DNA from: Bacteroidota bacterium
GTDB taxonomy: Bacteria > Bacteroidota > Bacteroidia > Flavobacteriales > Crocinitomicaceae
NCBI GenBank assembly: GCA_029558435.1
Contig: JAKQEZ010000378.1
Coordinates: forward strand, 1 to 12,655
Reading direction: 5' to 3'
Length of the DNA: 12,655 nt
The position numbers and the translations under genes were made by a program. The notes beneath the pieces are model-generated. The model saw only the letters and a list, made by a program, of their open reading frames with translations. It did no database searches and was not told the DNA's origin. Shown here piece by piece: positions 58 to 10,339 of this stretch. The stretch's first letter is position 1; the number at the start of each line of letters is the position of its first letter.

Positions 58-66
58 GTTATTGGC
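58..66 (+). other. Probable R' box of an upstream attC-like site (left end of cassette 0)
   Basis: GTTATTGGC here is the exact reverse complement of GCCAATAAC at 388-396, the box opening the next attC-like site. The same closing relation holds for the three other cassettes, so this is probably the left boundary of cassette 0. The preceding 57 bases do not show the CCGCC-type right arm seen in sites 2-4. The upstream partner is therefore a diverged attC, an attI-like site or coincidence, and its left half lies outside the window. Confidence 0.45.
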
Positions 67-387
67 TGTGTTCATTTCCGTCTGGTTTTTTGTCCGTCGT
101 TTTGTTATTTGTCTTGTTGTCGGAGACGCTTCGCCACCTCAGTCCCAATCTAGCAGATTTTGTCCGCAAGTAAAGGCACTAACGTGTCGTTTTACAAATT
201 CTCTCCCACTCTTCATCGTCTCCAAATATTTTAAAAATCCTTTCTCCCTGTCTGCCGAGAATCTCCGTATCTCGGTGTCTGTCTGCGTGTCGGACTGTCC
301 TGCCGATTCAAAATTGTCTGCCGTGTCTGGCCTGTCGTTTGAGCTGTCAACCTAAGATTGTCAGTCGGTTGGCGAAGCCCTCACATT
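59..387. other. Body of cassette 0, no convincing gene
   Basis: This 329-base stretch is rich in TGTC/TCTG words on the plus strand. A plus-strand open frame at 56-355 has only a TTG start inside the R' box, contains no internal Met, and translates to a cysteine- and phenylalanine-rich sequence unlike a real protein. On the minus strand a hydrophilic frame is open from 351 to the TGA at 139-141 and includes ...REKGFLKYLETMKSGREFVK.... It looks more protein-like but has no good start and a stop just upstream, so it may be a decayed gene end. I cannot assign a function. Confidence 0.4.
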
Positions 388-525
388 GCCAATAACGGTT
401 CTCAGCTATACGCAGGCAGGGCTTTTTACCACTGAACTTCCTACGAAGAACTGAACTTCAAATTTAGCACTTTCCTGTCCTACGAAGCACGAAACCCCTG
501 CTTGCGTATAGGTGATGTTATCGCT
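388..525 (+). repeat. attC-like site 1
   Basis: R'' box GCCAATAAC at 388-396 and R' box GTTATCGCT at 517-525. The paired arms are CTATACGCAGGCAGGG (406-421) against CCCTGCTTGCGTATAG (496-511), with one mismatch, separated from the boxes by unpaired spacers. The terminal segment contains GAACTTC and TACGAAG words and closely resembles that of site 4. The length of 138 bp is at the upper end of the known attC range. It separates cassette 0 from cassette 1. Confidence 0.65.
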
Positions 526-583
526 TCGGTGTTCTTTTTCGTCTGTTGGTTTGTCGGTCGTTTTGGTCGTGGGGTTGGGCAGA

Positions 584-642
584 CACACTCTTTGCCAAGC
601 TTTGGTTCGAGCTTGGGCTTGTGTGGCTTGGCAATGTGTGTG
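584..642. repeat. Covarying hairpin repeat, copy 1
   Basis: Stem A CACAC (584-588)/GTGTG (638-642), then TCT (589-591) opposite TGT (635-637), then stem B TTGCCAAGC (592-600)/GCTTGGCAA (626-634). The apical loop 601-625 contains GGGCTTGTGTG. The TCT/TGT internal loop and the GGCTYGT loop word recur in the copies at 5201-5263 and 8597-8654, whose stems differ completely. It lies 16 bp beyond the 3' end of the ATPase gene. It could act as a terminator but has no following T-run. Confidence 0.6.
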
Positions 643-658
643 GCTGTGTGTTGGGCTT

Positions 659-2596
659 TTAACTCGTTCCATTATTCACAAAATCTACTTTTAATTGTGT
701 TGATTGTTGTTTAAATAAATCCATTCCTGGAATATCATCATATCTTTCGTTAAGTTTTTGTCTTAGTCCAAAAAGCCTTTTTTCTGCTGTATCTACTAGT
801 TGGTCAAAAGTGCTAACATTTACTTTTCCTCGGTCGCCAACTTTTACATTTAATTCAACTTTTTCAGAGAATGTTTTTCCAACAACATAACAATCTATAC
901 TTGGATTTCCAATAATATTTCCTGCATTAATAAAATCCTCAACATAGCTCATAGCTTGATTTCTCTCTTTTCTTGAAAGATTCGAACCACCCTTTTTAAG
1001 TTCAATAATTAAAATGCGATTAACATTTGAAAGCCCTGAATCAGAATCAAACATTTCAGTTCCCGTCACAGAAAGAGTAGCATTTGATAGAACAACTATA
1101 TCTGGTCGTTTTCTGTGATTATTGAATACTTCTTTTTGTATTTCTGTTTTGAAAATAATTTGAACTGCATTTTGTAATTGACGATTTGAAGCATATTCAG
1201 CTGATTCATATTCTGGACCGAAAAGCCATCTAGCATTTGTTACTAAAGGGTGTAACACGTGTAATTCGTCAACATTTTCATCACCTGATAATTTACGGAT
1301 AGCTTCAATTACCGAAATCCGATTATCAATTTCATCTAAAACACTTAACGCATCACGAACAGACCAATTTTCAAGTAATGTATTTAACCCGTTAATATCA
1401 TCTTCAGAAAGTTTTGCAAGTCTTACTAATAATTCTTTGCCTGTACGGGTTTTTTCAAGATTGATTATTGCTTCAACTGCAATAGAAATAGATTCTGGTT
1501 TTGCTGTAGGGTGAGCACTTGTAATGCTTTCAATAGCTTCGTTTACTTCGTATTTTGCTAAAGGTGTTAATTGAGATAATTCGGATTGAAAATCACTTTT
1601 GATTTGCTGTTTAGTTTCTTCGATAGAGTCTTTCGCTATCTCAGCAAACATTTTATTAACATATTCAAAAACCTTCAAATAAACCTTTTCCATAGTTTCA
1701 ACTTTTTTGAAACCTGTCCAATCTTCGTAAATGTAATCTGCCAAATCGTTTGTTTGAATTACAACTGTATATCTTTTTGCAAATTTTGTTCTTCCGTCAA
1801 TAAAAACTTCATTTCCTAAAATCCAAGAAGGCTCTCCGACAAGTCTATTACTTTGCCAAAAAGCAATTCCTTGATATAAAGTTGAACGAGCCGATTTTTG
1901 TGAATCAATAAAATGGGCCATAAGTTTTATGTTTTCTTCTACAATAATTTCAGTAGTATCAACTAAGCCCGAATGTTGTTCTAATTGAACAGACTGTCTA
2001 TTGATAGAAACAATGAATTTTGGGTCGTGTAAAAATCTCGCAGAAATTATTTGCAAAATTTTATCAGGTTTGGGTAGGTTCTTTGTTACAGTTACTTCAA
2101 GTCGTGTTCCGAAAGAATCAGATTTTTCAAAATAGGATTCCTTGATTACAAATGGATGAGTTTCATCTTGTGTAGTAATTACGAAAGTAGATTTACTGCC
2201 ATCTGAATTTGTGATTACTGTGTACTCATTATCGAAACAAAGTAATCCGTGACGACCAACTCCATTTCTACCATAAGCTAATCTTTTTCCTTCAACATTT
2301 GTTGGGAAAATTACATTTTTGCCTTGATGTTTTATTCGATTATAACCAAGTTTCATCCATCGTTCCTTAAATTGCTTTTCAGTCAATCCTGTTCCATTAT
2401 CTTCAATAATTAATTTTTGGTTGTAATCTTCAGGAATAAATATATCGACAATTGTTGCACCTGCGTCCCACGCATTTGCAACAAGTTCGGTCAATGCGAT
2501 TTCAGGAGAATGAACTAATGCACCTAATGTTCGAATCAGATAATCTTCTTCAAATAGAGAGCCTTGAAAGTTTAAATTTTGACTTTTATCAGCCAT
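659..2596 (-). CDS. MORC/MutL-like GHKL ATPase with C-terminal PD-(D/E)XK-type nuclease domain
   Basis: 645 aa, last gene of the restriction-modification operon. The N-terminus is a GHKL (Hsp90/MutL/MORC) ATPase: helix motif ELVANAWDA (37-45) with catalytic Glu and Mg-binding Asn, DNGTG (66-70), and lid glycines GRNGVGRHG (109-117). A probable transducer and helical region follows to about residue 440. The C-terminal part has LHPLVTNARWLFG (449-461), RPD (497-499) and IELKK (531-535), matching a PD-(D/E)XK nuclease core with Asp499, Glu532 and Lys534. GHKL ATPases of the MutL/MORC class are known from bacterial restriction operons, where ATP-driven clamping is thought to control cleavage. The ATG at 2596 lies 3 bases after the methyltransferase stop, so the two are probably translationally coupled. 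The ATPase call is firm, the nuclease likely, and the role in restriction inferred. Confidence 0.85.
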   Translation of the reverse strand: MADKSQNLNFQGSLFEEDYLIRTLGALVHSPEIALTELVANAWDAGATIVDIFIPEDYNQKLIIEDNGTGLTEKQFKERWMKLGYNRIKHQGKNVIFPTNVEGKRLAYGRNGVGRHGLLCFDNEYTVITNSDGSKSTFVITTQDETHPFVIKESYFEKSDSFGTRLEVTVTKNLPKPDKILQIISARFLHDPKFIVSINRQSVQLEQHSGLVDTTEIIVEENIKLMAHFIDSQKSARSTLYQGIAFWQSNRLVGEPSWILGNEVFIDGRTKFAKRYTVVIQTNDLADYIYEDWTGFKKVETMEKVYLKVFEYVNKMFAEIAKDSIEETKQQIKSDFQSELSQLTPLAKYEVNEAIESITSAHPTAKPESISIAVEAIINLEKTRTGKELLVRLAKLSEDDINGLNTLLENWSVRDALSVLDEIDNRISVIEAIRKLSGDENVDELHVLHPLVTNARWLFGPEYESAEYASNRQLQNAVQIIFKTEIQKEVFNNHRKRPDIVVLSNATLSVTGTEMFDSDSGLSNVNRILIIELKKGGSNLSRKERNQAMSYVEDFINAGNIIGNPSIDCYVVGKTFSEKVELNVKVGDRGKVNVSTFDQLVDTAEKRLFGLRQKLNERYDDIPGMDLFKQQSTQLKVDFVNNGTS

Positions 2597-2599
2597 ATT

Positions 2600-3919
2600 T
2601 TATTTATTTAAGTAGTTCTCTAAAATTTCATTTATCAAATCTGAATATTTAGAATTTGATAAAAGGTTGAAATCAGTTTTTAAAGCCTTTCCATAATTAG
2701 ATTTTGGTTCAAACAGTGTCATTTGGTCATTATCATTTTCTGAATTGTTTTTTCCGTTTACATAATCTCCCATTCCTTCAAGACCATTAAAAAATCGTTT
2801 TAAAATATTGTCGATTGCTTCTGAACTATTATCTACACCTACCCAATTACGACCTAATTGTTGAGCCACCCCAAGTGTTGTTCCCGAACCTGCAAAACAG
2901 TCTAAAACAATGTCGCCTTTGTCTGAAGATGCTTCTATTATTCTTTTTAGTAAATCTGGATTTTTTTCAGTTGGGTATCCTGTGATTTTTATACTTTGAT
3001 TCAATGAATCTTGTACATCTGTCCATATATCTTGTACGGCAATTCCTTTGTCTTTATCTAAAAACACTTTTCTTCTTGGATTACCTGTAGCTGACCAATA
3101 AATTTCTCCAACTCTGTCAAACTCATCTAACTTACTCGGTGTATATTGCCAATGCTTTCCGGGTGGGGGCAACATTCCTTTCCATTCTTTTCCTGTTTCA
3201 CCATTCCTTACTCCTGGAGCGTGTATAGGAACTTTTTTATATCTTCTTCCTGTGGCTTCATCAATACAAGGATATTCTTTTAAAATTTTTTCGTCAGTCC
3301 AAGCTGCTGTAGCTCTATGCCAAGTGAAATTGTCAGTTTTAGAATAAAATAAAATGTAATCTGAGATATTACCGTAAGTATTTCGTGTTGAATTTTTATT
3401 GCTGCATTTTTTTCTAGTTATAAAACCACGAAAATTTTTAGCACCAAAAACTTCATCCATTATGATTTTAATTTGTGAAGTCATATTGCTGTCAAGATGA
3501 ACATAAATAGAGCCATCATCAGACAATAATTCACGTAACAAAACAACTCTTCTTCTAATAAACTCAATAAAATGACTTCCTACTAAATCATCCTTATATG
3601 AATCTTTCTGATTTCGAGATTGGAAAACACTATTTGTTCCATAAGGTGGGTCAATGTAAATTAGTTTCACTTTGTTTTTCAATTCTCCTGAATGCAGAAG
3701 AAAACGTAATACATCTAAATTGTCACCGTAAATCAATTTATTTTCTTTGAATTCACCATACAGTGATTCATATTTTTCTTTAGAGGGCGTTGAAATTATT
3801 TCCTTTTCGGGCATCTTGCCTTTATAAGTTATTTCATAATCTGTTTCAAATGGAAAATGTTCAGATGAAACAATCTGAACTGTTTCCTGCCACATATTTT
3901 TTGTTACTCCTGTTGCCAT
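2600..3919 (-). CDS. DNA methyltransferase, N4/N6 beta class (DPPY first, FAGSGTT late)
   Basis: 439 aa. Motif IV is YIDPPYGTN (88-96), preceded by LIYGDN (62-67). The AdoMet-binding motif I, LDCFAGSGTT (339-348), comes near the C-terminus after the characteristic YPTEKNPDLLKRII (315-328). This order defines the beta class of amino-methyltransferases (Pfam N6_N4_Mtase). DPPY rather than SPPY suggests N6-adenine as product. The long stretch between about 165 and 300 is where the target-recognition region would sit. The start ATG follows the upstream gene's stop by 4 bases. It is the protective methylase of the cassette 1 system; its recognition sequence cannot be read from the gene. No truncation or missing motif is seen. 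Confidence 0.92.
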   Translation of the reverse strand: MATGVTKNMWQETVQIVSSEHFPFETDYEITYKGKMPEKEIISTPSKEKYESLYGEFKENKLIYGDNLDVLRFLLHSGELKNKVKLIYIDPPYGTNSVFQSRNQKDSYKDDLVGSHFIEFIRRRVVLLRELLSDDGSIYVHLDSNMTSQIKIIMDEVFGAKNFRGFITRKKCSNKNSTRNTYGNISDYILFYSKTDNFTWHRATAAWTDEKILKEYPCIDEATGRRYKKVPIHAPGVRNGETGKEWKGMLPPPGKHWQYTPSKLDEFDRVGEIYWSATGNPRRKVFLDKDKGIAVQDIWTDVQDSLNQSIKITGYPTEKNPDLLKRIIEASSDKGDIVLDCFAGSGTTLGVAQQLGRNWVGVDNSSEAIDNILKRFFNGLEGMGDYVNGKNNSENDNDQMTLFEPKSNYGKALKTDFNLLSNSKYSDLINEILENYLNK

Positions 3920-3923
3920 AATT

Positions 3924-4784
3924 TTAACTATTTAACCATTCTAGTGTAATTCTTTCTGTAATCATTCTAAGTGTAACAACTTTAATGTCGTCTGAAGCTT
4001 CTTCAATATAACTATAATCATCCCACATTGAACCTAGAAGCAAACCAGGGCCATCATTTACGAATATTATTTTTGTTCTTAAATCTTTACCAATGGCATA
4101 TTCAAGTAACTCTCTTGAAGCATTAGAATAACCTCCTGTCCTGTCATCTTCTTGAGCACCACCTCTATCCGAATCATATCTTGCAAAACCCACAGCTAAA
4201 ATTATATCACCATCTTTTATAATAAAATCCGCAGGTCTGTTTGGCTTTGTATAATCTTCAAATACTTCACCTAATAGAATATCTCTTCCTGCTCTTTCAG
4301 GACCAAGTATTTCAAATTGAGGAAATTTACTTCTTAAAAGTTCAAACATTTTTTCTGTCATATCGTACCCCTTTTGTCCTCTATCCTTATATTCCCAAAG
4401 GATAGCACATAATGCTTCGTCAGGCATTGGGCGTGAAAGAAACGCTTTTTGAACTTCAACAATTGACCTAAATCCTTTTCCAAATTCTTGACATATCCAA
4501 TCAGCTTTACGTTTATGTTTTAGCATTTCAACTGGTGTGTTTGGACTCACATATTTTCTAAATACTCTTGCTAGTTGAATTCGCATCCAAGGTTGGTTAA
4601 CATCTACTGTTTGTAAGAAAAGTTTTTCCGAACTTTCACTTGTTTTTAAAAGCTGACCGAACAATTCTAGTACAGGTCTATATAAGTTACAAGCATCAAC
4701 AAGTATATCTGGGTAAAATTCACCCGAGGCAAGTGTTATCCAATTTGCATTTTCCGCTTTATAATCTCTAAATTTCTTTGTCAT
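3924..4784 (-). CDS. Putative restriction endonuclease subunit (family not recognised)
   Basis: 286 aa. It lies between the controller gene (stop 1 base upstream) and the methyltransferase (4 bases downstream), the usual place for the R gene of a C-R-M operon. I do not recognise a named family. The most conserved-looking block is in the C-terminal half: GPERAGRDI (161-169), PADFIIKDGD (184-193) and VGFARYDSDRGGAQEDDR (198-215). Asp186 followed by a beta-hairpin resembles the Asp of a PD-(D/E)XK core, but the E-x-K position reads GFARYDS, so the fold call is weak. The protein is soluble with no signal peptide. The restriction role is inferred from position only; specificity subunit or accessory factor remains possible. 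Confidence 0.6.
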   Translation of the reverse strand: MTKKFRDYKAENANWITLASGEFYPDILVDACNLYRPVLELFGQLLKTSESSEKLFLQTVDVNQPWMRIQLARVFRKYVSPNTPVEMLKHKRKADWICQEFGKGFRSIVEVQKAFLSRPMPDEALCAILWEYKDRGQKGYDMTEKMFELLRSKFPQFEILGPERAGRDILLGEVFEDYTKPNRPADFIIKDGDIILAVGFARYDSDRGGAQEDDRTGGYSNASRELLEYAIGKDLRTKIIFVNDGPGLLLGSMWDDYSYIEEASDDIKVVTLRMITERITLEWLNS

Positions 4785-4785
4785 T

Positions 4786-5100
4786 CTATTTATGTTGCTT
4801 GTAGTATTTAATTTTTTCTTCCGCTACTTTCAAAATTTCAATTCCATCTTCTTCCTCTAAAAGTTGATAGGTGATTTTATCGCTTAAATAACGAACTTTT
4901 AAATCAGCTTTGTCAATGTGAAAAATTCTTGAAATGCCATCAATAAATTGTTCGTTTGCATTTCGTTCATTCTTCTCAATTTTACTTAACGTTGAAGTAT
5001 CGATGTCCAACTCTGCGGCAATCTTTCTCAAAGGAAGGTTTGCATTTTCTCTAAGTGTTCTGATGAACTCTCCAAATGTTATGTTGTCTGTTTTTGACAT
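4786..5100 (-). CDS. XRE-family controller (C) protein of the restriction-modification operon
   Basis: 104 aa from ATG 5100. A TTG at 5115 would add five residues but sits inside an inverted repeat, so the ATG is preferred. A helix-turn-helix of the lambda-repressor/Xre type spans about residues 10-63: FGEFIRTLRENANLPLRKIAAELDI, then DTSTLSKIEKNER as recognition helix region. The tail is acidic and then lysine-rich. Small XRE genes placed first in restriction operons typically delay endonuclease expression until methylation is established, and autoregulate through an operator at their own start; one candidate site overlaps here (5108-5127). The stop TAG is separated from the next ATG by one base, so the four genes form one transcription unit. 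Confidence 0.85.
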   Translation of the reverse strand: MSKTDNITFGEFIRTLRENANLPLRKIAAELDIDTSTLSKIEKNERNANEQFIDGISRIFHIDKADLKVRYLSDKITYQLLEEEDGIEILKVAEEKIKYYKQHK

Positions 5101-5107
5101 ATTCTGC

Positions 5108-5127
5108 TTTGGCAAATTTTGTCCAAA
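5108..5127. promoter_or_regulatory. Candidate C-protein operator overlapping the regulator start
   Basis: TTTGGCAAATTTTGTCCAAA contains inverted arms TTTGG/CCAAA and an inner palindrome CAAATTTTG. It lies 8 bases upstream of the regulator ATG. Autoregulatory sites in this position are usual for restriction-system controller proteins. Binding is inferred from symmetry and position only. Confidence 0.4.
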
Positions 5128-5131
5128 AATA
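5124..5131 (-). promoter_or_regulatory. Candidate -7 box for the restriction-modification operon
   Basis: Read on the minus strand this is TATTTTTG, matching the Bacteroidota -7 consensus TAnnTTTG, 23 bases upstream of the regulator ATG and overlapping the candidate operator. I see no clear -33 TTTG at the usual spacing, so the call is weak. Confidence 0.35.
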
Positions 5132-5200
5132 ATGAAATAAGATTTACGCTATTCATTTTCTTCTATTTTTTTATTCACAGTCCGTTCGTGCGTTGGAAAG

Positions 5201-5263
5201 AAATGGCTCTTTTGGTTTTTTAAGCGTTGGCTCGTGTGTCAGAAAAAACCAAATGTGCCATTT
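5201..5263. repeat. Covarying hairpin repeat, copy 2
   Basis: Stem A AAATGGC (5201-5207)/GCCATTT (5257-5263), internal loop TCT (5208-5210)/TGT (5254-5256), stem B TTTGGTTTTTT (5211-5221)/AAAAAACCAAA (5243-5253), all perfectly paired. The apical loop 5222-5242 contains TGGCTCGTGTG, matching copy 1 (GGGCTTGTGTG). It lies between the regulator gene and attC-like site 2, in what could be the promoter-distal upstream region of the restriction operon. Confidence 0.65.
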
Positions 5264-5285
5264 GTGCGGTCGGCTTTTTACACTG

Positions 5286-5421
5286 AGCGATAACGTTTTG
5301 CAGCTTGGCGAAGTGGCGGATTTAGAAGCACTTACTTTCAATTTAGCACTAATGTTTATTTGAAATCCAAATGTTCAATTTAGCACAGAACCCGCCATTT
5401 TGCCAAACTGCTGTTAGCCGT
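5286..5421 (+). repeat. attC-like site 2
   Basis: R'' box AGCGATAAC (5286-5294) and R' box GTTAGCCGT (5413-5421). Arms GCAGCTTGGCGAAGTGGCGG (5300-5319) and CCGCCATTTTGCCAAACTGC (5392-5411) pair at 17 of 20 positions, and the three mismatches could form G:T pairs in folded single-stranded DNA. The terminal segment with AATTTAGCAC repeats resembles site 3, not sites 1 and 4. It separates cassettes 1 and 2. Confidence 0.68.
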
Positions 5422-5446
5422 TCGGTGTTTTTTTGTTCGTCATTTT

Positions 5447-6610
5447 CTATTTATTTCCTTTTGCTCTGTTATGTGATTTACACAACATTTCACAGTTTTT
5501 AGTGTCGGTTGCTCCGCCTTTACTCCAAGCTGTAACGTGGTCTGCGTCCATTTCTGCTAATTTCCAAATTTTGGTTTTGTTAGCATCGTGTCCGATTGCA
5601 CAATGTGAACAATTTGATATATTTTTCTTTTCAGCTTCTGCTGTCTGAATAGCGTAAGTTGATTTTTTTGTTGCTTCGTCAAAAACTCTAACTTCCAAAA
5701 GTTTAAAGTCTGTTGAACCACCCAAAATAAATTCAAAAACGCCTTTTCTGTTTTTTATGTATGGGTCGGCATACAATTTTTTAACTTGTTCTGAAACTGT
5801 CTTTGAGTTGTATGGTTGTTTCTTATACGCTTCGTAAAGTCTGCCCCATTCAAGTCCTTTCATTTCGCTTTCCACGTCTGTAAACACTGTAGAAACCCAG
5901 TCAATAACACTTTTAAAATAGTTTTTAAGTTCTGTAATGTTGTTGTCAAATCGGTGTTTGCTCATATAATCGCCAACATTTTCTTTGCTTACCCATTCCA
6001 ATGCTCTTTCTAAAAAGTCTTGTCGGTTTGCACTACCAGAAATGTAAGCACTCCATTTTTGAATGTTTGCATTTTGGCTGTTGCTAAATTCTTCTTTACC
6101 AAGTGTTACAAATGGTCCAGAATAGACAGCGTTTAATAATTCTTGATTTGTCAGAGGAACACCTGAAATATTAATGGTTCTAAACCATTCTTTTATTTCG
6201 CTTTCTGTTCCTTCACATTCATAAATTAAAAGTTTCGCTTCTAAAATTTTCTTTTGTTTGTCTTCTGCAATACCACTAAAATATTGCTCCATTCCGTTTT
6301 CGTCTTTTATTGCAAATTTGTTAGTTACAAATCTTCCAAAACTAGTAATTCGCTGTTGTCCGTCTAAAACTTCAAGGCTGTTTTTATCTACTCTGTTGAA
6401 ATAAATTAAACCTAATGGATAACCTTTTAAGATTGAATTTATTACTGCAACATCTCTTTTTCCGTCTGCATAAATATAGTTGCGTTGGTATTCGGGTTGA
6501 ATTGTTAAAGTACCTGAAAGTCCAAACAAACCCTTTCCTTCAAGTTCATTGTATATGAAACCATCGCAAACGTCTTTTACTGTTATATCTGTTCGTAAAG
6601 TAGTATCCAT
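5447..6610 (-). CDS. DUF262 domain protein with C-terminal HNH endonuclease
   Basis: 387 aa. The N-terminal DUF262 (ParB/GmrS-like NTPase) domain shows [10 protein letters not shown] (38-47), [13 protein letters not shown] (59-71) and the signature DGQQRITSF (83-91). The middle is helical. The C-terminus is a zinc-supported HNH nuclease: CSHC (334-337), DADH (355-358), WSKGG (362-366), Asn372, and [12 protein letters not shown] (376-387), ending at the stop. The same DUF262-plus-HNH-superfamily plan is known from type IV GmrSD enzymes and the phosphorothioation-linked SspE. Next to a dedicated methyltransferase it is probably the cutting partner, either targeting DNA lacking the mark or sensing foreign modification. 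The ATG abuts the methylase stop (TAA-ATG), indicating coupled translation. The domain call is firm; the mode of action is inferred. Confidence 0.85.
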
Positions 6611-7705
6611 TTATTTCCTCTTTTTTATTACAAGTCTTACATAAGTTGGTACGCCATTAATTGTTCCGTCTTTGTCTTTAATTAAACCGTGTTCTTTAAA
6701 TGGCATTGTATCATTTGTTATTATATCATTTGAACTAATTATTTCAAATTGTTCAGGTGAATACTTATCTAAAAAACTAATTGGAACTGCCATTGCACCG
6801 TCATAATCGCTAGGTATTGCATCCGTAAATGGAATATTAATAGCATCGTAATTATCAAACTTTTGATATTCTTTTCCTTTGATTTCCTTGTGTTTACTAA
6901 ATTTTATATTGTCTTGCATTGTCATTAATGGCAAAGGTTGATGTCGTCTACCGTGGTCAAGATTTGAATACCAAACAGAAGGCGACCTTAAATAAACTAC
7001 ACCATCAACAGTTCTTGTGGCTGAGCTTGGTTTTTTTGCTGGGTCAACTTCTTCCGGTGAAATAAACAACATATCTTTATTAAAACTTGTCGTTCCAACC
7101 CACATTTTATTAGCTTTTATTAATGGGAAAACTTCTTTTAATGTAATTGCATTTTTGCTACCAACAATTACAAACTTCTTATCTGCTTCAACTATCCACG
7201 CTAAAAAATCTCTAAATAAAGAAAAAGGTGGATTTGTAATAATTATGTCCGCTTCGTCACGCAATTTTTTTATTTCATCACTTTTAAAATCTCCATCGCC
7301 TTTTAAGTAAGTCCATTCCAAATCATTTACATCAATTTTTCCATCGCCACTTTTGTCATAAGTTAATGAAAATATTTTTCCGTTTTTAACAGTTTTCTTT
7401 TTGTCAAATTGAGGATTGTTCGTTTCAAAAAGAGTTGGTTGATAATTGTTTTTGTATAGTTTGCTGTCAGGTGCGTAACTTGTACTTATTAATTTTTTAA
7501 GTCCAAAGCGTTCAAAATTCTGTGCAAAAAATTTTGTGAAGTTGCTCCATTCTGGGTCATCACAAGGTAATAAAATAGTTTTGTCCTTAAATGTATTTGG
7601 GTCATAGTCTAAATAAGCCATTATTTCTTTCTCAATGTCTTGATATTGAGTATAAAATTCGTCATTCTTCGCATTTTTCGCTTTTGATAGATTACTATTT
7701 GCCAT
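6611..7705 (-). CDS. EcoRI-family adenine-specific DNA methyltransferase
   Basis: 364 aa. The start KNDEFYTQYQDIEKEI (13-28) followed by ILLPCDDPEWSNFTKFF (44-60) is typical of the EcoRI methylase family, where the AdoMet motif I is degenerate. Catalytic motif IV is DIIITNPPFSLFRDF (153-167), with NPPF at 158-161, followed by KFVIVGSKNAITLKEVFP (177-194). The expected product is N6-methyladenine. Residues 117-128 (DKSGDGKIDVND) fit an EF-hand-type calcium loop, an odd insert in a methyltransferase. ATG 7705 is preceded by a -7-like box at 7732-7739. The partner is the DUF262-HNH gene directly downstream. Family identity is confident; the recognition site is unknown. Confidence 0.9.
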   Translation of the reverse strand: MANSNLSKAKNAKNDEFYTQYQDIEKEIMAYLDYDPNTFKDKTILLPCDDPEWSNFTKFFAQNFERFGLKKLISTSYAPDSKLYKNNYQPTLFETNNPQFDKKKTVKNGKIFSLTYDKSGDGKIDVNDLEWTYLKGDGDFKSDEIKKLRDEADIIITNPPFSLFRDFLAWIVEADKKFVIVGSKNAITLKEVFPLIKANKMWVGTTSFNKDMLFISPEEVDPAKKPSSATRTVDGVVYLRSPSVWYSNLDHGRRHQPLPLMTMQDNIKFSKHKEIKGKEYQKFDNYDAINIPFTDAIPSDYDGAMAVPISFLDKYSPEQFEIISSNDIITNDTMPFKEHGLIKDKDGTINGVPTYVRLVIKKRK

Positions 7706-7731
7706 TAATTTATTGTCAATATGTTAAGTCG

Positions 7732-7739
7732 CAAATTTA
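7732..7739 (-). promoter_or_regulatory. Candidate -7 box for the methylase-nuclease operon
   Basis: On the minus strand this reads TAAATTTG (consensus TAnnTTTG), 26 bases upstream of the methylase ATG. No clear -33 TTTG is found 17-21 bases further up. A private promoter is expected because the genes oppose the usual cassette direction. Confidence 0.4.
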
Positions 7740-7798
7740 CGATTTTTATTTCTGTTATTTGTCGGTTTTGTCTGTCGGTTTTGCGGTTCGCTACACTG

Positions 7799-7934
7799 AC
7801 GGCTAACGGTTTGCGTGTATAAGAAGTGGCGGAATTAAAGCACAAAATTAACTTGAAAGCAATACAGTTCATATCAGCACAAATGTTTCTAAATGGCACA
7901 AAACCCGCCATTTTTTATACACGCTGTTATATGC
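7799..7934 (+). repeat. attC-like site 3
   Basis: R'' box ACGGCTAAC (7799-7807) and R' box GTTATATGC (7926-7934). Arms GCGTGTATAAGAAGTGGCGG (7813-7832) and CCGCCATTTTTTATACACGC (7905-7924): ten perfect outer pairs, then a short mismatch zone, then TGGCGG/CCGCCA. The terminal segment has AGCACAA words as in site 2. It separates cassettes 2 and 3. Confidence 0.68.
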
Positions 7935-8424
7935 TGTTTTTCTTTCGCAAACTTAAATATAATGGATATTAAAAATATTAAGCAAATTGTAAATTCTGAT
8001 TTACCAAATGATTATCAAGAGAAAGCAATTCTTTCTATTCTTGCTGACGACAAAAAGGCAATTCCATATATTATGGAAATTTTAGAGAATGAACGTCAAC
8101 AAAGTAAAGAACTTATTTTAGAGACAAACGCTGAATTAAGTAGGGCATTATTGGTTCTAAATGATGAAAACTTAATGACAAATAAAAAAGTTGTTGCCGA
8201 ACCTAAATGGGTAGCTGGAGAAATTAAGAAACACTACCTAAAATGGAAGGATTATATTAAATGTAATTTCAAGGTAAATGGTCTTCCTTAAAATAGCAGA
8301 TAACGGTTTCGGGCTTTGCGAAGGTGGCGATTTTTAGCTCCGAACTTCATTCGAAGTACCAAACTTCAAATTTACGAAAAACTGTCATACGAAGCACTGC
8401 ACCGCCACTTTTGCAAAACCCGTG
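7927..8424 (+). mobile_element. Cassette 3: classical single-gene cassette
   Basis: Bounded by GTTATATGC (7926-7934) and GCAGATAAC (8296-8304), reverse-complementary at 8 of 9 bases. It is about 500 bp with one sense gene starting 27 bases after the left box and stopping 4 bases before the right box. Size, orientation and spacing are those of textbook integron cassettes, which makes this unit the best single argument for the array. Confidence 0.65.
7962..8291 (+). CDS. Orphan cassette protein, function unknown
   Basis: 109 aa from ATG 7962. An in-frame ATG at 7893 lies inside the attC-like arm and would add a meaningless hydrophobic leader, so it is rejected. I do not recognise a family. The sequence looks soluble and mostly alpha-helical: MDIKNIKQIVNSDLPNDYQEK, a central Glu-rich segment (EILENERQQSKELILE), then a basic C-terminus with KWVAGEIKKHYLKWKDYIKC. 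No signal peptide, membrane segment or catalytic motif is visible. It is the only gene of the array reading toward its attC-like site, and no TAnnTTTG box is evident upstream, so it may rely on an upstream promoter. Its A+T-rich codon use resembles the other cassettes. By neighbourhood a defence or anti-defence role is possible but unsupported. Confidence 0.75.
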   Translation: MDIKNIKQIVNSDLPNDYQEKAILSILADDKKAIPYIMEILENERQQSKELILETNAELSRALLVLNDENLMTNKKVVAEPKWVAGEIKKHYLKWKDYIKCNFKVNGLP

Positions 8425-8432
8425 TTACCAGC
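8296..8432 (+). repeat. attC-like site 4 (last of the array)
   Basis: R'' box GCAGATAAC (8296-8304) and R' box GTTACCAGC (8424-8432). Arms CGGGCTTTGCGAAGGTGGCG (8310-8329) and CGCCACTTTTGCAAAACCCG (8403-8422) pair at 17 of 20 positions, and the mismatches are compatible with G:T pairing when folded. The GAACTTC and ACGAAGCAC words in the terminal segment match site 1. No box GCTGGTAAC follows before the core genes, so the array ends here. Confidence 0.68.
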
Positions 8433-8570: not shown

Positions 8571-8596
8571 AATAATTTTTCGGTCGGGAAAGGAGG

Positions 8597-8654
8597 AAGC
8601 TCTTTTGCAAACTTTGGTCTGCGGGTAGGCTTGTAGCAGTTTGCAAATGTGCTT
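8597..8654. repeat. Covarying hairpin repeat, copy 3
   Basis: Stem A AAGC (8597-8600)/GCTT (8651-8654), TCT (8601-8603) opposite TGT (8648-8650), stem B TTTGCAAACT (8604-8613)/AGTTTGCAAA (8638-8647). The apical loop 8614-8637 contains AGGCTTGTAG, related to the loops of copies 1 and 2. It overlaps the stop codon of the YggS gene on the minus strand and could serve as its terminator, although no T-run follows. Confidence 0.6.
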
Positions 8655-9387
8655 ACACCTGTGGGTTGGTTTCTCTGTTGTCATTCCAATAATAGCTGTC
8701 CGGATAAGGTCGTTTGCCGAATATTGCAGTTCCAATACGAATAATCGTTGAGCCTTCTTCTATGGCTGTTTCTAAGTCGTTACTCATTCCCATTGATAAG
8801 TCGTAAACAGGTAAGTCTTTATCTAACATTCGTATCTGAATGTTCTTTAGTAATTGAAAGCATTTTCGAACTTTCTCTGTTTCCGCAGAAAAAAGTCCGA
8901 TAGTCATTAAACCTTTAATATTTAGTCTGTCAAGTTGTTTGACTTGTTGAGCAAAAATCAAAGCATTTTCGGGTGAAACACCAAACTTACTTTCTTCATA
9001 CGAAGTGTTTACTTGAATAAAAACATCTATGGTTCTATCTTCAAATTCTAATCTCTTTTGCAATTTTTCAGCTAATTCCAACCTGTCAACAGATTGTATA
9101 CAGTCAGCATATTTCGTAACTTCTTTGACTTTATTAGTTTGAAGATGTCCGATGAAATGGGTTTGGTGTGGGATAACTTTTAGTGCTTCAAATTTCTCTT
9201 TGAGTTCCTGCACCTTATTTTCTCCAATAAGCGTTTCACCTGTTTCCAAGGCGTTAATAATATTTGTAGTCGAAACTGTTTTAGTTGCTAATAGGAGTTT
9301 GATTTCCGTTGAGTTTCTGCCTGAAAATTCGGCTGCTGCTCTTATTCTACCCTTAATGGTTGCTATGTTTTCGATTATGAAGCTCAT
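8653..9387 (-). CDS. yggS: YggS/PLPBP-family pyridoxal phosphate homeostasis protein
   Basis: 244 aa from ATG 9387, which overlaps the MarR stop as ATGA. A TTG eight codons further upstream is less likely. It has a fold-type III alanine racemase-like barrel without racemase partner domain: PLP lysine in LLLATKTVS (Lys36, same position as E. coli YggS), GENKVQE, HFIGHLQTNK, SMGMSNDLETAIEEGST and the closing IRIGTAIFGKR. The protein binds and buffers pyridoxal 5'-phosphate in the cytoplasm and is near-universal. Length is normal. It is the last gene of the DUF2024-MarR-YggS unit and the first core gene after the cassette array. Coupling of a PLP chaperone to a MarR regulator is not something I recognise as standard. 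Confidence 0.93.
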   Translation of the reverse strand: MSFIIENIATIKGRIRAAAEFSGRNSTEIKLLLATKTVSTTNIINALETGETLIGENKVQELKEKFEALKVIPHQTHFIGHLQTNKVKEVTKYADCIQSVDRLELAEKLQKRLEFEDRTIDVFIQVNTSYEESKFGVSPENALIFAQQVKQLDRLNIKGLMTIGLFSAETEKVRKCFQLLKNIQIRMLDKDLPVYDLSMGMSNDLETAIEEGSTIIRIGTAIFGKRPYPDSYYWNDNRETNPQV

Positions 9388-9989
9388 ATCTGCAATTCGT
9401 GTTCTTGACAATCTATTCTCAATTCGTTTTCGGCAAGTTGACTTTTCAAAAGTTTGCAGTAGTGAACACCTTTTTCAAGTTGATAGTTGGAGCAAGTAAA
9501 ACACATTCTTTGAATGGTAATTATGCCTGATTTGTTTAAGTCATAAATCAATTTCAGCAATCCGTTGAGCATTATTTCTTTCTGTTCCTGTGTCAGTCTT
9601 TCAATAGGTTGTTCTATAGAGGAAGCAAATAATGATACCTTCTTTGCTATTTTTTTCCCTTCGTTTGTTAGTGATAGCGAAAAACTCCTTGTATCAATGG
9701 GGTCAGTTTCCTTGGTAACTAATCCTTTTGAAAGTAAAACTTTTACACTGTCGCTTATTGTGGCTTTAGTCATGTTGAACTCGTTAGCCAAATAACCCAC
9801 CTTGCATTTTTCCAACGAATGGAAATAGATGAAAATTAAAATTTGAATTTGTATCGGGCTTAATGAATTTTCTTTGCTTTCATTCCATAATAATACTCTG
9901 AATGCTTCTGAAATTCGCTCCAAAGCCACCACAATGCGACTTTCGACTTTTTGGTTTTGCTCGTTTAAGTTAAATGAAGAATGTTTCAT
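9384..9989 (-). CDS. MarR-family regulator with C-terminal four-cysteine motif
   Basis: 201 aa from ATG 9989, which overlaps the DUF2024 stop as TAATG. The MarR winged helix spans about 20-150: SPIQIQILIFIYFH, then VGYLANEFNMTKATISDSVKVLLSKGLV as recognition region, then the wing DPIDTRSFSLSLT. An extra C-terminal segment has Cys163, Cys166 (CFTC), Cys178 (HYC) and Cys194 (DCQEHE), a C-x2-C-x11-C-x15-C set that could hold zinc or an iron-sulfur cluster or act as a thiol switch. It is a cytoplasmic DNA-binding dimer by family. The likely targets are the AGGAATCCT dyads in the two nearby promoters, including that of its own unit. The family is certain; ligand and sites are inferred. Confidence 0.9.
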   Translation of the reverse strand: MKHSSFNLNEQNQKVESRIVVALERISEAFRVLLWNESKENSLSPIQIQILIFIYFHSLEKCKVGYLANEFNMTKATISDSVKVLLSKGLVTKETDPIDTRSFSLSLTNEGKKIAKKVSLFASSIEQPIERLTQEQKEIMLNGLLKLIYDLNKSGIITIQRMCFTCSNYQLEKGVHYCKLLKSQLAENELRIDCQEHELQI

Positions 9990-10339
9990 TAATCGCAATT
10001 TTCCATTTCAAGTATAAAATAACCTTGCTTTTTAATGTCTGCTTCCCATTGCGGGTGCAAACTTCTTACGTGACAAAATCGGCATTCTTTTGATGTCAAG
10101 GGTTGCCCTTCTTGTCCTTTGGTCTTCAAATATTCGCTACCAAAACCGTAGATGATGATAGTATCTTTAATTTCTTCGGGTGCTATAATGTCAAAGTGCA
10201 TTACGCTTCCGTCTTTTTTTGTTACATAGGTGTCCCAAACTGCTACCTTCATTTTTGTTTCTTTTTTAATGTATGATTGAGCCTTTGTAGTTATACCTAC
10301 AAATATGACAAGTGCAAACAATATAGTTATTTGTTTCAT
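9989..10339 (-). CDS. DUF2024 family protein with N-terminal signal-peptide-like extension
   Basis: The conserved DUF2024 domain starts at MKVAVWDTYV (ATG at 10252, giving 87 aa) and carries SKECRFCHV and QGYFILEMENC near the end. Members are usually short single-domain proteins of unknown function starting at that Met. Here the frame continues upstream to ATG 10339 (116 aa) and encodes MKQITILFALVIFVGITTKA followed by QS, a text-book Bacteroidota signal peptide ending in KAQS, then a short linker. The predicted promoter (-7 at 10361-10368) puts transcription start close to ATG 10339, which favours the long form; a 100-base leader before ATG 10252 is the alternative. CxxC (CRFC) could be redox-active or metal-binding. 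It is first gene of the DUF2024-MarR-YggS unit. Confidence 0.85.
   Translation of the reverse strand: MKQITILFALVIFVGITTKAQSYIKKETKMKVAVWDTYVTKKDGSVMHFDIIAPEEIKDTIIIYGFGSEYLKTKGQEGQPLTSKECRFCHVRSLHPQWEADIKKQGYFILEMENCD

Follow-up and report, generated by a model that had tools for sequence, protein, structure and literature searches.

The window analyzed here is positions 1 to 12,655 of contig JAKQEZ010000378.1 of a Bacteroidota bacterium (Crocinitomicaceae; GenBank assembly GCA_029558435.1). Four palindromes, p1 to p4, separate stretches with unrelated contents in it, two of which carry restriction-type systems, and ordinary-looking genes lie to the right of p4. The features are as follows, with bit scores from R1, a model derived from the sites of our own scan.

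58..66, plus strand: box GTTATTGGC, exact complement (9/9) of 388–396, the left box of p1; starts a unit without a recognizable palindrome
388..396, plus strand: left box of p1, GCCAATAAC, pairing with 58–66
393..520, plus strand: site p1, attC-like palindrome TAAC...GTTA (R1 94.6 bits, and fold)
517..525, plus strand: right box of p1, GTTATCGCT, exact complement of 5286–5294
659..5115, minus strand: cargo 1, restriction-modification-like operon (domain search of ORFs), with the next four genes
659–2596, minus strand: HSP90-like ATPase domain
2600–3919, minus strand: DNA methylase
3924–4784, minus strand: ORF without a family match
4786–5115, minus strand: HTH control protein
5286..5294, plus strand: left box of p2, AGCGATAAC, pairing with 517–525
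5291..5416, plus strand: site p2, attC-like palindrome (R1 127.6 bits on the plus strand, 28.8 on the minus strand)
5413..5421, plus strand: right box of p2, GTTAGCCGT, exact complement of 7799–7807
5447–6610, minus strand: cargo 2, GmrSD_N and HNH nuclease
6611–7705, minus strand: cargo 2, EcoRI-type adenine methylase
7799..7807, plus strand: left box of p3, ACGGCTAAC, pairing with 5413–5421
7804..7929, plus strand: site p3, attC-like palindrome (R1 105 bits)
7926..7934, plus strand: right box of p3, GTTATATGC, complement of 8296–8304 with one mismatch
7962..8291, plus strand: cargo 3, 109-aa ORF without a family match, scanned as the longer 132-aa frame 7893–8291
8296..8304, plus strand: left box of p4, GCAGATAAC, pairing with 7926–7934 with one mismatch
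8301..8427, plus strand: site p4, attC-like palindrome, rightmost of the four (R1 107 bits)
8424..8432, plus strand: right box of p4, GTTACCAGC, whose rightward partner is absent in the window
8653–9411, right of p4: Ala_racemase_N protein, which we take to be YggS-like
9384–9998, right of p4: MarR

A sequence-only reading of the window had already pointed to four co-oriented palindromes with unrelated contents between them, and both observations hold. A stem-and-box scan, which asked for 19 of 20 paired stem positions and a length of 110–135 nt, detected four such elements in the window, and 150 dinucleotide shuffles yielded none. The AAC...GTT cores of p1–p4 (394–519, 5292–5415, 7805–7928 and 8302–8426 on the plus strand) are 124–126 nt long, and each site consists of TAAC, five unpaired nucleotides, one arm of a stem of about 20 pairs, a big loop, the other arm, one unpaired nucleotide and GTTA. 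This is an imperfect hairpin with two paired regions and an unpaired spacer, as in integrons. Folded as DNA, the four sites gave z values against shuffles of −3.07, −3.34, −1.94 and −2.01 on the plus strand, which is not strong in every case, and of −3.30, −2.55, −0.42 and −1.47 on the minus strand; three of the four favor the plus strand, the bottom one in cassette orientation. The R1 scores of 94.6–127.6 bits come from a model whose alignment itself includes these sites. The stem type of p3, GCGTGTATAAGAAG, is common in IMG/VR contigs, and a search with p3 against a phage collection gave no match.

The outer boxes follow a rule that joins neighboring sites, in which the hexamer that follows the GTT of one site, when reverse-complemented, gives the hexamer ahead of the AAC of the next. 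The window fits it at 6/6 for p1/p2 and p2/p3 and at 5/6 for p3/p4. Among the loci that were fetched, 96 of 125 adjacent site pairs matched at five or more of six positions (82 at all six), compared with a mean of 10.0 and a maximum of 20 in shuffled pairings; for this count 256 of 277 scan hits were kept (start AACG, length 112–132). The match extends to position 12, with position 8 identical in merely 2%, since a T on the left (96%) there faces a G on the right (74%). The two boxes of a single site were complementary in 32 of 251 cases. All 66 loci with at least two sites had them co-oriented, and a 9/9 partner box lay within 5 kb to the right of the rightmost site in 75 of 99 cases, some of these loci overlapping, against 6 of 99 with shuffled boxes. 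As in IntI integrons, the start of a cassette is thus complementary to the box of its own site. The rule is the integron cassette rule, by which the two ends of a unit, brought together in a circle, make up the outer box of the unit's own site.

The earlier reading had drawn the units as 59–517 and so on. The array of units stands, and their limits shift, because each palindrome seems to move together with the sequence to its right; the units of the window would therefore run from about 394 to 5291, 5292 to 7804, 7805 to 8301 and from 8302 to an end that is not placed. To the left of 58 no palindrome was recognizable, the best R1 score there being −1.8 bits. A site p0 at this place was considered and dropped, as R1 gives it no support, although the 5′ half of such a site would fall beyond the window. 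The box at 58–66 belongs either to a lost site or to a diverged one that the edge of the window truncates.

The palindromes belong to a large family. In 55 diverse sites, 24 stem pairs were paired in 95.5% of 1315 cells, and double changes in the stems numbered 360 against 108.5 in shuffles, a value that 0 of 500 shuffles reached. One stem pair is G.T in 54 of these 55 sites and in 194 of the 225 of a larger non-redundant set, and becomes A.C on the opposite strand. One half-site pattern matched in 28 IMG/VR contigs and, among GTDB genomes, in at least 117 stretches; by record title, the matches listed were nearly all from Bacteroidota, along with Ignavibacteria/Chlorobi MAGs and three MAG contigs named Proteobacteria. 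Among 395 sampled Bacteroidota genomes, with at most eight candidates scored in each, R1-type sites were found in 181 and no R1 match in 214. These 214 genomes, together with the Shewanella phage M16-3 discussed below, come closest to a negative control. These counts describe the family of R1, as the model was derived from the sites of our own scan. The highest number of R1 matches in one genome was 89. A tyrosine recombinase of the kind described below was present in 117 of the 395 genomes, 103 of which had both; sites thus occurred in 103 of the 117 genomes with the integrase and in 78 of the 278 that lack it (Fisher p 2e-29). The exceptions are 14 of 117 integrase genomes without a site and 78 of 181 site genomes without an integrase (at E 1e-45).

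Shorter members of the family (48–93 bp) occur in viral contigs, and in five hand-picked ones 22 of 27 neighboring boxes fitted at five or more of six positions. The viral-classed IMG/VR contigs L001–L028 hold dense arrays, with 103 R1 matches in 28 contigs, at least two of which are echoes on the opposite strand, and their units are as short as about 110 bp. In one of them (L021), a recombinase at 40% identity adjoins its sites. A Chryseobacterium plasmid (L165, NZ_CP041688.1) carries an integrase and five sites.

The genes between the sites run one way. Among ORFs of at least 100 aa in 107 cassettes, 130 of 132 lay on the strand opposite to the site, so the forward direction of the cassettes is the minus strand of the window. 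The ORF of cargo 3 is an exception, as it runs opposite to most cassette genes. Locus pairs that share DNA beside a site did so on the right only in 15 cases, on the left only in one and on both sides in one; about seven of the 15 are strong and several represent the same unit, which leaves few independent cases. Turnover of cassettes among relatives had been suggested as a check in the sequence-only reading, and genome comparison found two units whole between unrelated neighbors. Three loci (L073, L124 and L132) share a unit of 871–882 bp at 99.3–99.9% identity with different DNA on both sides, reaching from the (CA)TAACG of one palindrome to within or just past the TAACG of the next. A second unit of 865 bp (97%), bounded likewise, is common to L008 and L022. 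These two units account for the four of ten compared locus pairs that had a whole unit in common, and the remaining six shared a site with part of a unit, a short stretch or nothing. Such comparisons indicate that the cassettes move as units.

In relatives, the arrays are headed by a tyrosine recombinase, in most cases seen with an extra N-terminal domain. Of 43 integrase rows whose contig also has a printed site row, 36 had their nearest printed site within 20 kb. Read in the orientation of that site, the integrase was on its right in 34 of the 36 and on its left in two (G176 and a second copy in G333); the other seven of the 43 were more than 20 kb from any printed site. This does not bear out the expectation of an intI gene to the left of the window. 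In 18 integrase loci, a site was found downstream in 14, and in 12 of these the 9/9 box of the first cassette was located, 77–106 bp past the integrase stop in nine and farther off in L155 (3016 bp), L159 (455 bp) and L165 (279 bp); no such box was found in the other two of the 14, L194 and L199. An attI consensus, ACGCATATAAACAA|GTT, was matched at six or more of its 11 last bases in 36 of 42 integrase loci, 66–123 bp past the stop, with none in the other six, the consensus being drawn from the same loci on which it is counted. As judged by eye, an inverted repeat often precedes this attI-like point. An attI next to the integrase gene, as in IntI integrons, is thus found in the relatives.

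Other arrangements were seen beside these. In a second one, the integrase lies right of the sites and points away from the array (L155 9113–9943; G215, G333, G057, G026, G407, G038, G065 and G021), and the integrase of L155 (P0005) is without the N-terminal domain. Broken integrase genes, with stops or a frameshift, adjoin arrays in L150 (17831–18870), G014, G011 and G040. A boundary common to L055, L068, L076 and L118, GTT|GAACTAAACC, begins where a site ends in GTT. From this boundary on, L068 and L118 carry a tyrosine recombinase together with what we read as an IS91-type transposase frame, and L166 has a pair annotated alike. The recombinase that starts at the GTT end of sites in L068 and L118 was considered as the cassette integrase and rejected, since it marks an element boundary abutting the site and falls on a separate tree branch.

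Within the window, the best attI profile score was 7.2, below the attI minimum of 8.2, and no attI was found, including in the 4.2 kb right of p4. The DNA preceding position 58, gacatatagttttt, looked attI-like; its profile score was far below that of every attI used, and positions 1–57 are not an attI by the profile. None of the three scanned ORFs right of p4 is a recombinase, and no rightward partner for the right box of p4 was found in the window, the best being 7/9 at 9711, inside the MarR ORF. With neither an attI nor a partner for p4, the array looks cut off on the right. Of the two possibilities named in the sequence-only reading, the end of an integron or an attC cluster without an integrase, the second is retained and a standard integron is not. 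As no attI was found right of p4 and no recombinase among the scanned ORFs, the window appears to be an integrase-free cluster, a distal or orphan piece of an array.

The cassettes are rich in defense genes. With PADLOC at 1e-10, 94 cassette proteins matched 155 families and 87 flank proteins matched 11; these counts are of families, of which one protein can match many. The flank set came from 109 candidates, of which 94 were drawn and seven at a stretch end dropped, with lengths not matched to the cassettes. The cassette families shown comprise methylases, restriction enzymes, a CBASS-type cyclase and 4TM effector, LmuB, AbiU and IetS, and the flank matches include DndA, SspA and IetA models. 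Together with the restriction-type systems of cargo 1 and cargo 2, this agrees with the earlier proposal of defense genes as cassettes. Relatives of the EcoRI-type methylase of the window were found in 13 of 385 genomes, and three of 15 such loci had a site nearby (L238, L241 and L248); one lies inside the array of G007. A second hairpin family of 65–80 bp occurs near cassette ends (575–652, 5196–5268 and 8586–8665 in the window), with variable outer and inner stems in the plan CTCTTT...GGCTTGTG...AAATGTG. The pattern CTCTTTN{20,45}AAATGTG matched 23 times across loci totaling 1.76 Mb, and several loci had it no more than about 250 bp from a site.

Considering these comparisons, we propose, with a probability of about 0.88, that the window contains a section of a gene-cassette array belonging to an integron-like Bacteroidota system with a separate recombinase branch. 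The idea of an integron-like array with diverged attC-like sites is borne out in this form, as the relatives show the integrase, attI-like points and moved units. In the proposed model, each unit would consist of a gene or operon and a single hairpin site. The cutting would be done by a tyrosine recombinase from a branch of its own, probably the one at the head of the array, which would excise units as circles by recombination of two sites and insert the circles at the attI point beside its own gene. The exchange point would be the outer TAACG/CGTTA box, so that the circle would regain a fully paired site. The site would be used as a folded single strand, namely the plus strand of the window. 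In cassette terms this is the bottom strand, and it carries the G.T pairs, which is a hint at its use. The extra N-terminal domain of the recombinase may help it to recognize a hairpin or fork, and the HARP/XPB/UvsW N-terminal domains of fork helicases are a possible likeness for it. Xer recombinases act on one dif site in chromosome resolution. The present family differs from the simple tyrosine recombinases Xer/XerA in that it is found at cassette arrays and has the added N-terminal domain.

With IntI integrons the system shares tandem one-way cassettes, an attI beside the integrase, one hairpin site per cassette, complementary boxes within the unit and clusters without an integrase, so its anatomy appears to work like that of an integron. 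This common plan is also the argument for reading it as an IntI integron after all, or a CALIN of one, whose integrase and attC have merely diverged; NCBI names some of the recombinases "site-specific tyrosine recombinase/integron integrase", and an excerpt from PMC8138268 states that conservation of the IntI insert is incomplete in an integron-like subgroup. The Bacteroidota recombinase, in contrast, is without the IntI insert. TIGR02249 matched the integrases of relatives in two pieces (about 2–179 and 238–315 in the rows printed), with about 180–237 unmatched, and its cut-off was exceeded in 0 of 19 genomes, as well as in 0 of 14 control genomes, so that this count has no positive control. 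Compared with IntI4 (2a3v), the recombinase has 19 residues in place of 61. In a small tree, four sampled IntI stood apart (support 100), and 39 IntI columns were empty or nearly so in this recombinase group; the tree has a midpoint root and includes the short sequences L268 (191 aa), L118 (197 aa), L068 (230 aa) and L263 (253 aa). The attI also differs, lying downstream of an integrase gene that usually points into the array. The boxes are TAAC/GTTANNNGC-like, whereas those of IntI integrons are GTTRRRY, and among 225 non-redundant sites RYYYAAC was found in 15 and GTTRRRY in 17. The sites further differ from IntI attC in a spacer of five nucleotides against one and in the near-invariant G.T pair. 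According to an excerpt from PMC9892861, Shewanella phage M16-3 carries an attC, and R1 gave nothing significant on it (best E 0.22). Because of two defining features, with the insert missing in the relatives and GTTRRRY-type boxes rare, the system is not filed as an IntI integron, nor is the standard integron of the sequence-only reading supported; a diverged IntI integron is improbable.

A further likeness is offered by Polaribacter phage P12002L, a phage of a Bacteroidota host with attC-like sites beside DNA methylases; it is described in the excerpt from PMC9892861 as having two attC sites, one of which recombined with attI1 through IntI1. The best R1 place in this phage, GCAGGTAACG (23.9 bits, E 0.0035, 59 bp), may not be one of the sites of that paper.

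That near-identical palindromes recur in many contexts would also suit REP- or MITE-like elements spread by transposition and merely flanking genes. We regard this as very unlikely, because the stems vary with compensation and are not copies, the complementarity joins the ends of units (96/125 neighbors) and not the ends of a palindrome (32/251), and the arrays are co-oriented with a recombinase at their head. Transcription terminators or structured RNAs without a role in recombination would likewise be hairpins between genes, and they are hardly credible here, as an Rfam search of the window gave nothing near significance (best E 0.69), pairing of the boxes beyond the hairpin spans the entire unit, and units recur whole elsewhere.

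The integron-like Bacteroidota system may extend to a broader picture, for which we see about even chances, of a second integron lineage. Its Xer/XerA-like recombinases would never have had the IntI insert and would carry a HARP/XPB/UvsW-like fork-recognition domain in its stead. Close to half of Bacteroidota species would have this lineage, which would also occur on plasmids and in phage-like contigs, as a main store of their anti-phage systems. Integrons are described as rare in Bacteroidetes in an excerpt of the IntegronFinder 2.0 paper (PMC9024848), with In0 only in an earlier study and then one complete integron in Salinibacter, besides Chlorobi and Ignavibacteriae; excerpts of two other papers place Bacteroidota among the phyla with integrons. 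A literature search by title and abstract opening, with preprints outside its scope, found no description of this Bacteroidota cassette system.

If the second lineage is real, the IntI insert would not be the sole solution for recombining folded single-stranded sites. If the system works as proposed, a whole phylum would be largely unseen by tools built on attC and IntI, cassette capture would have originated or branched off repeatedly, and searches between the sites could bring up a large store of defense genes. The Bacteroidota system makes testable what the insert of IntI is needed for.
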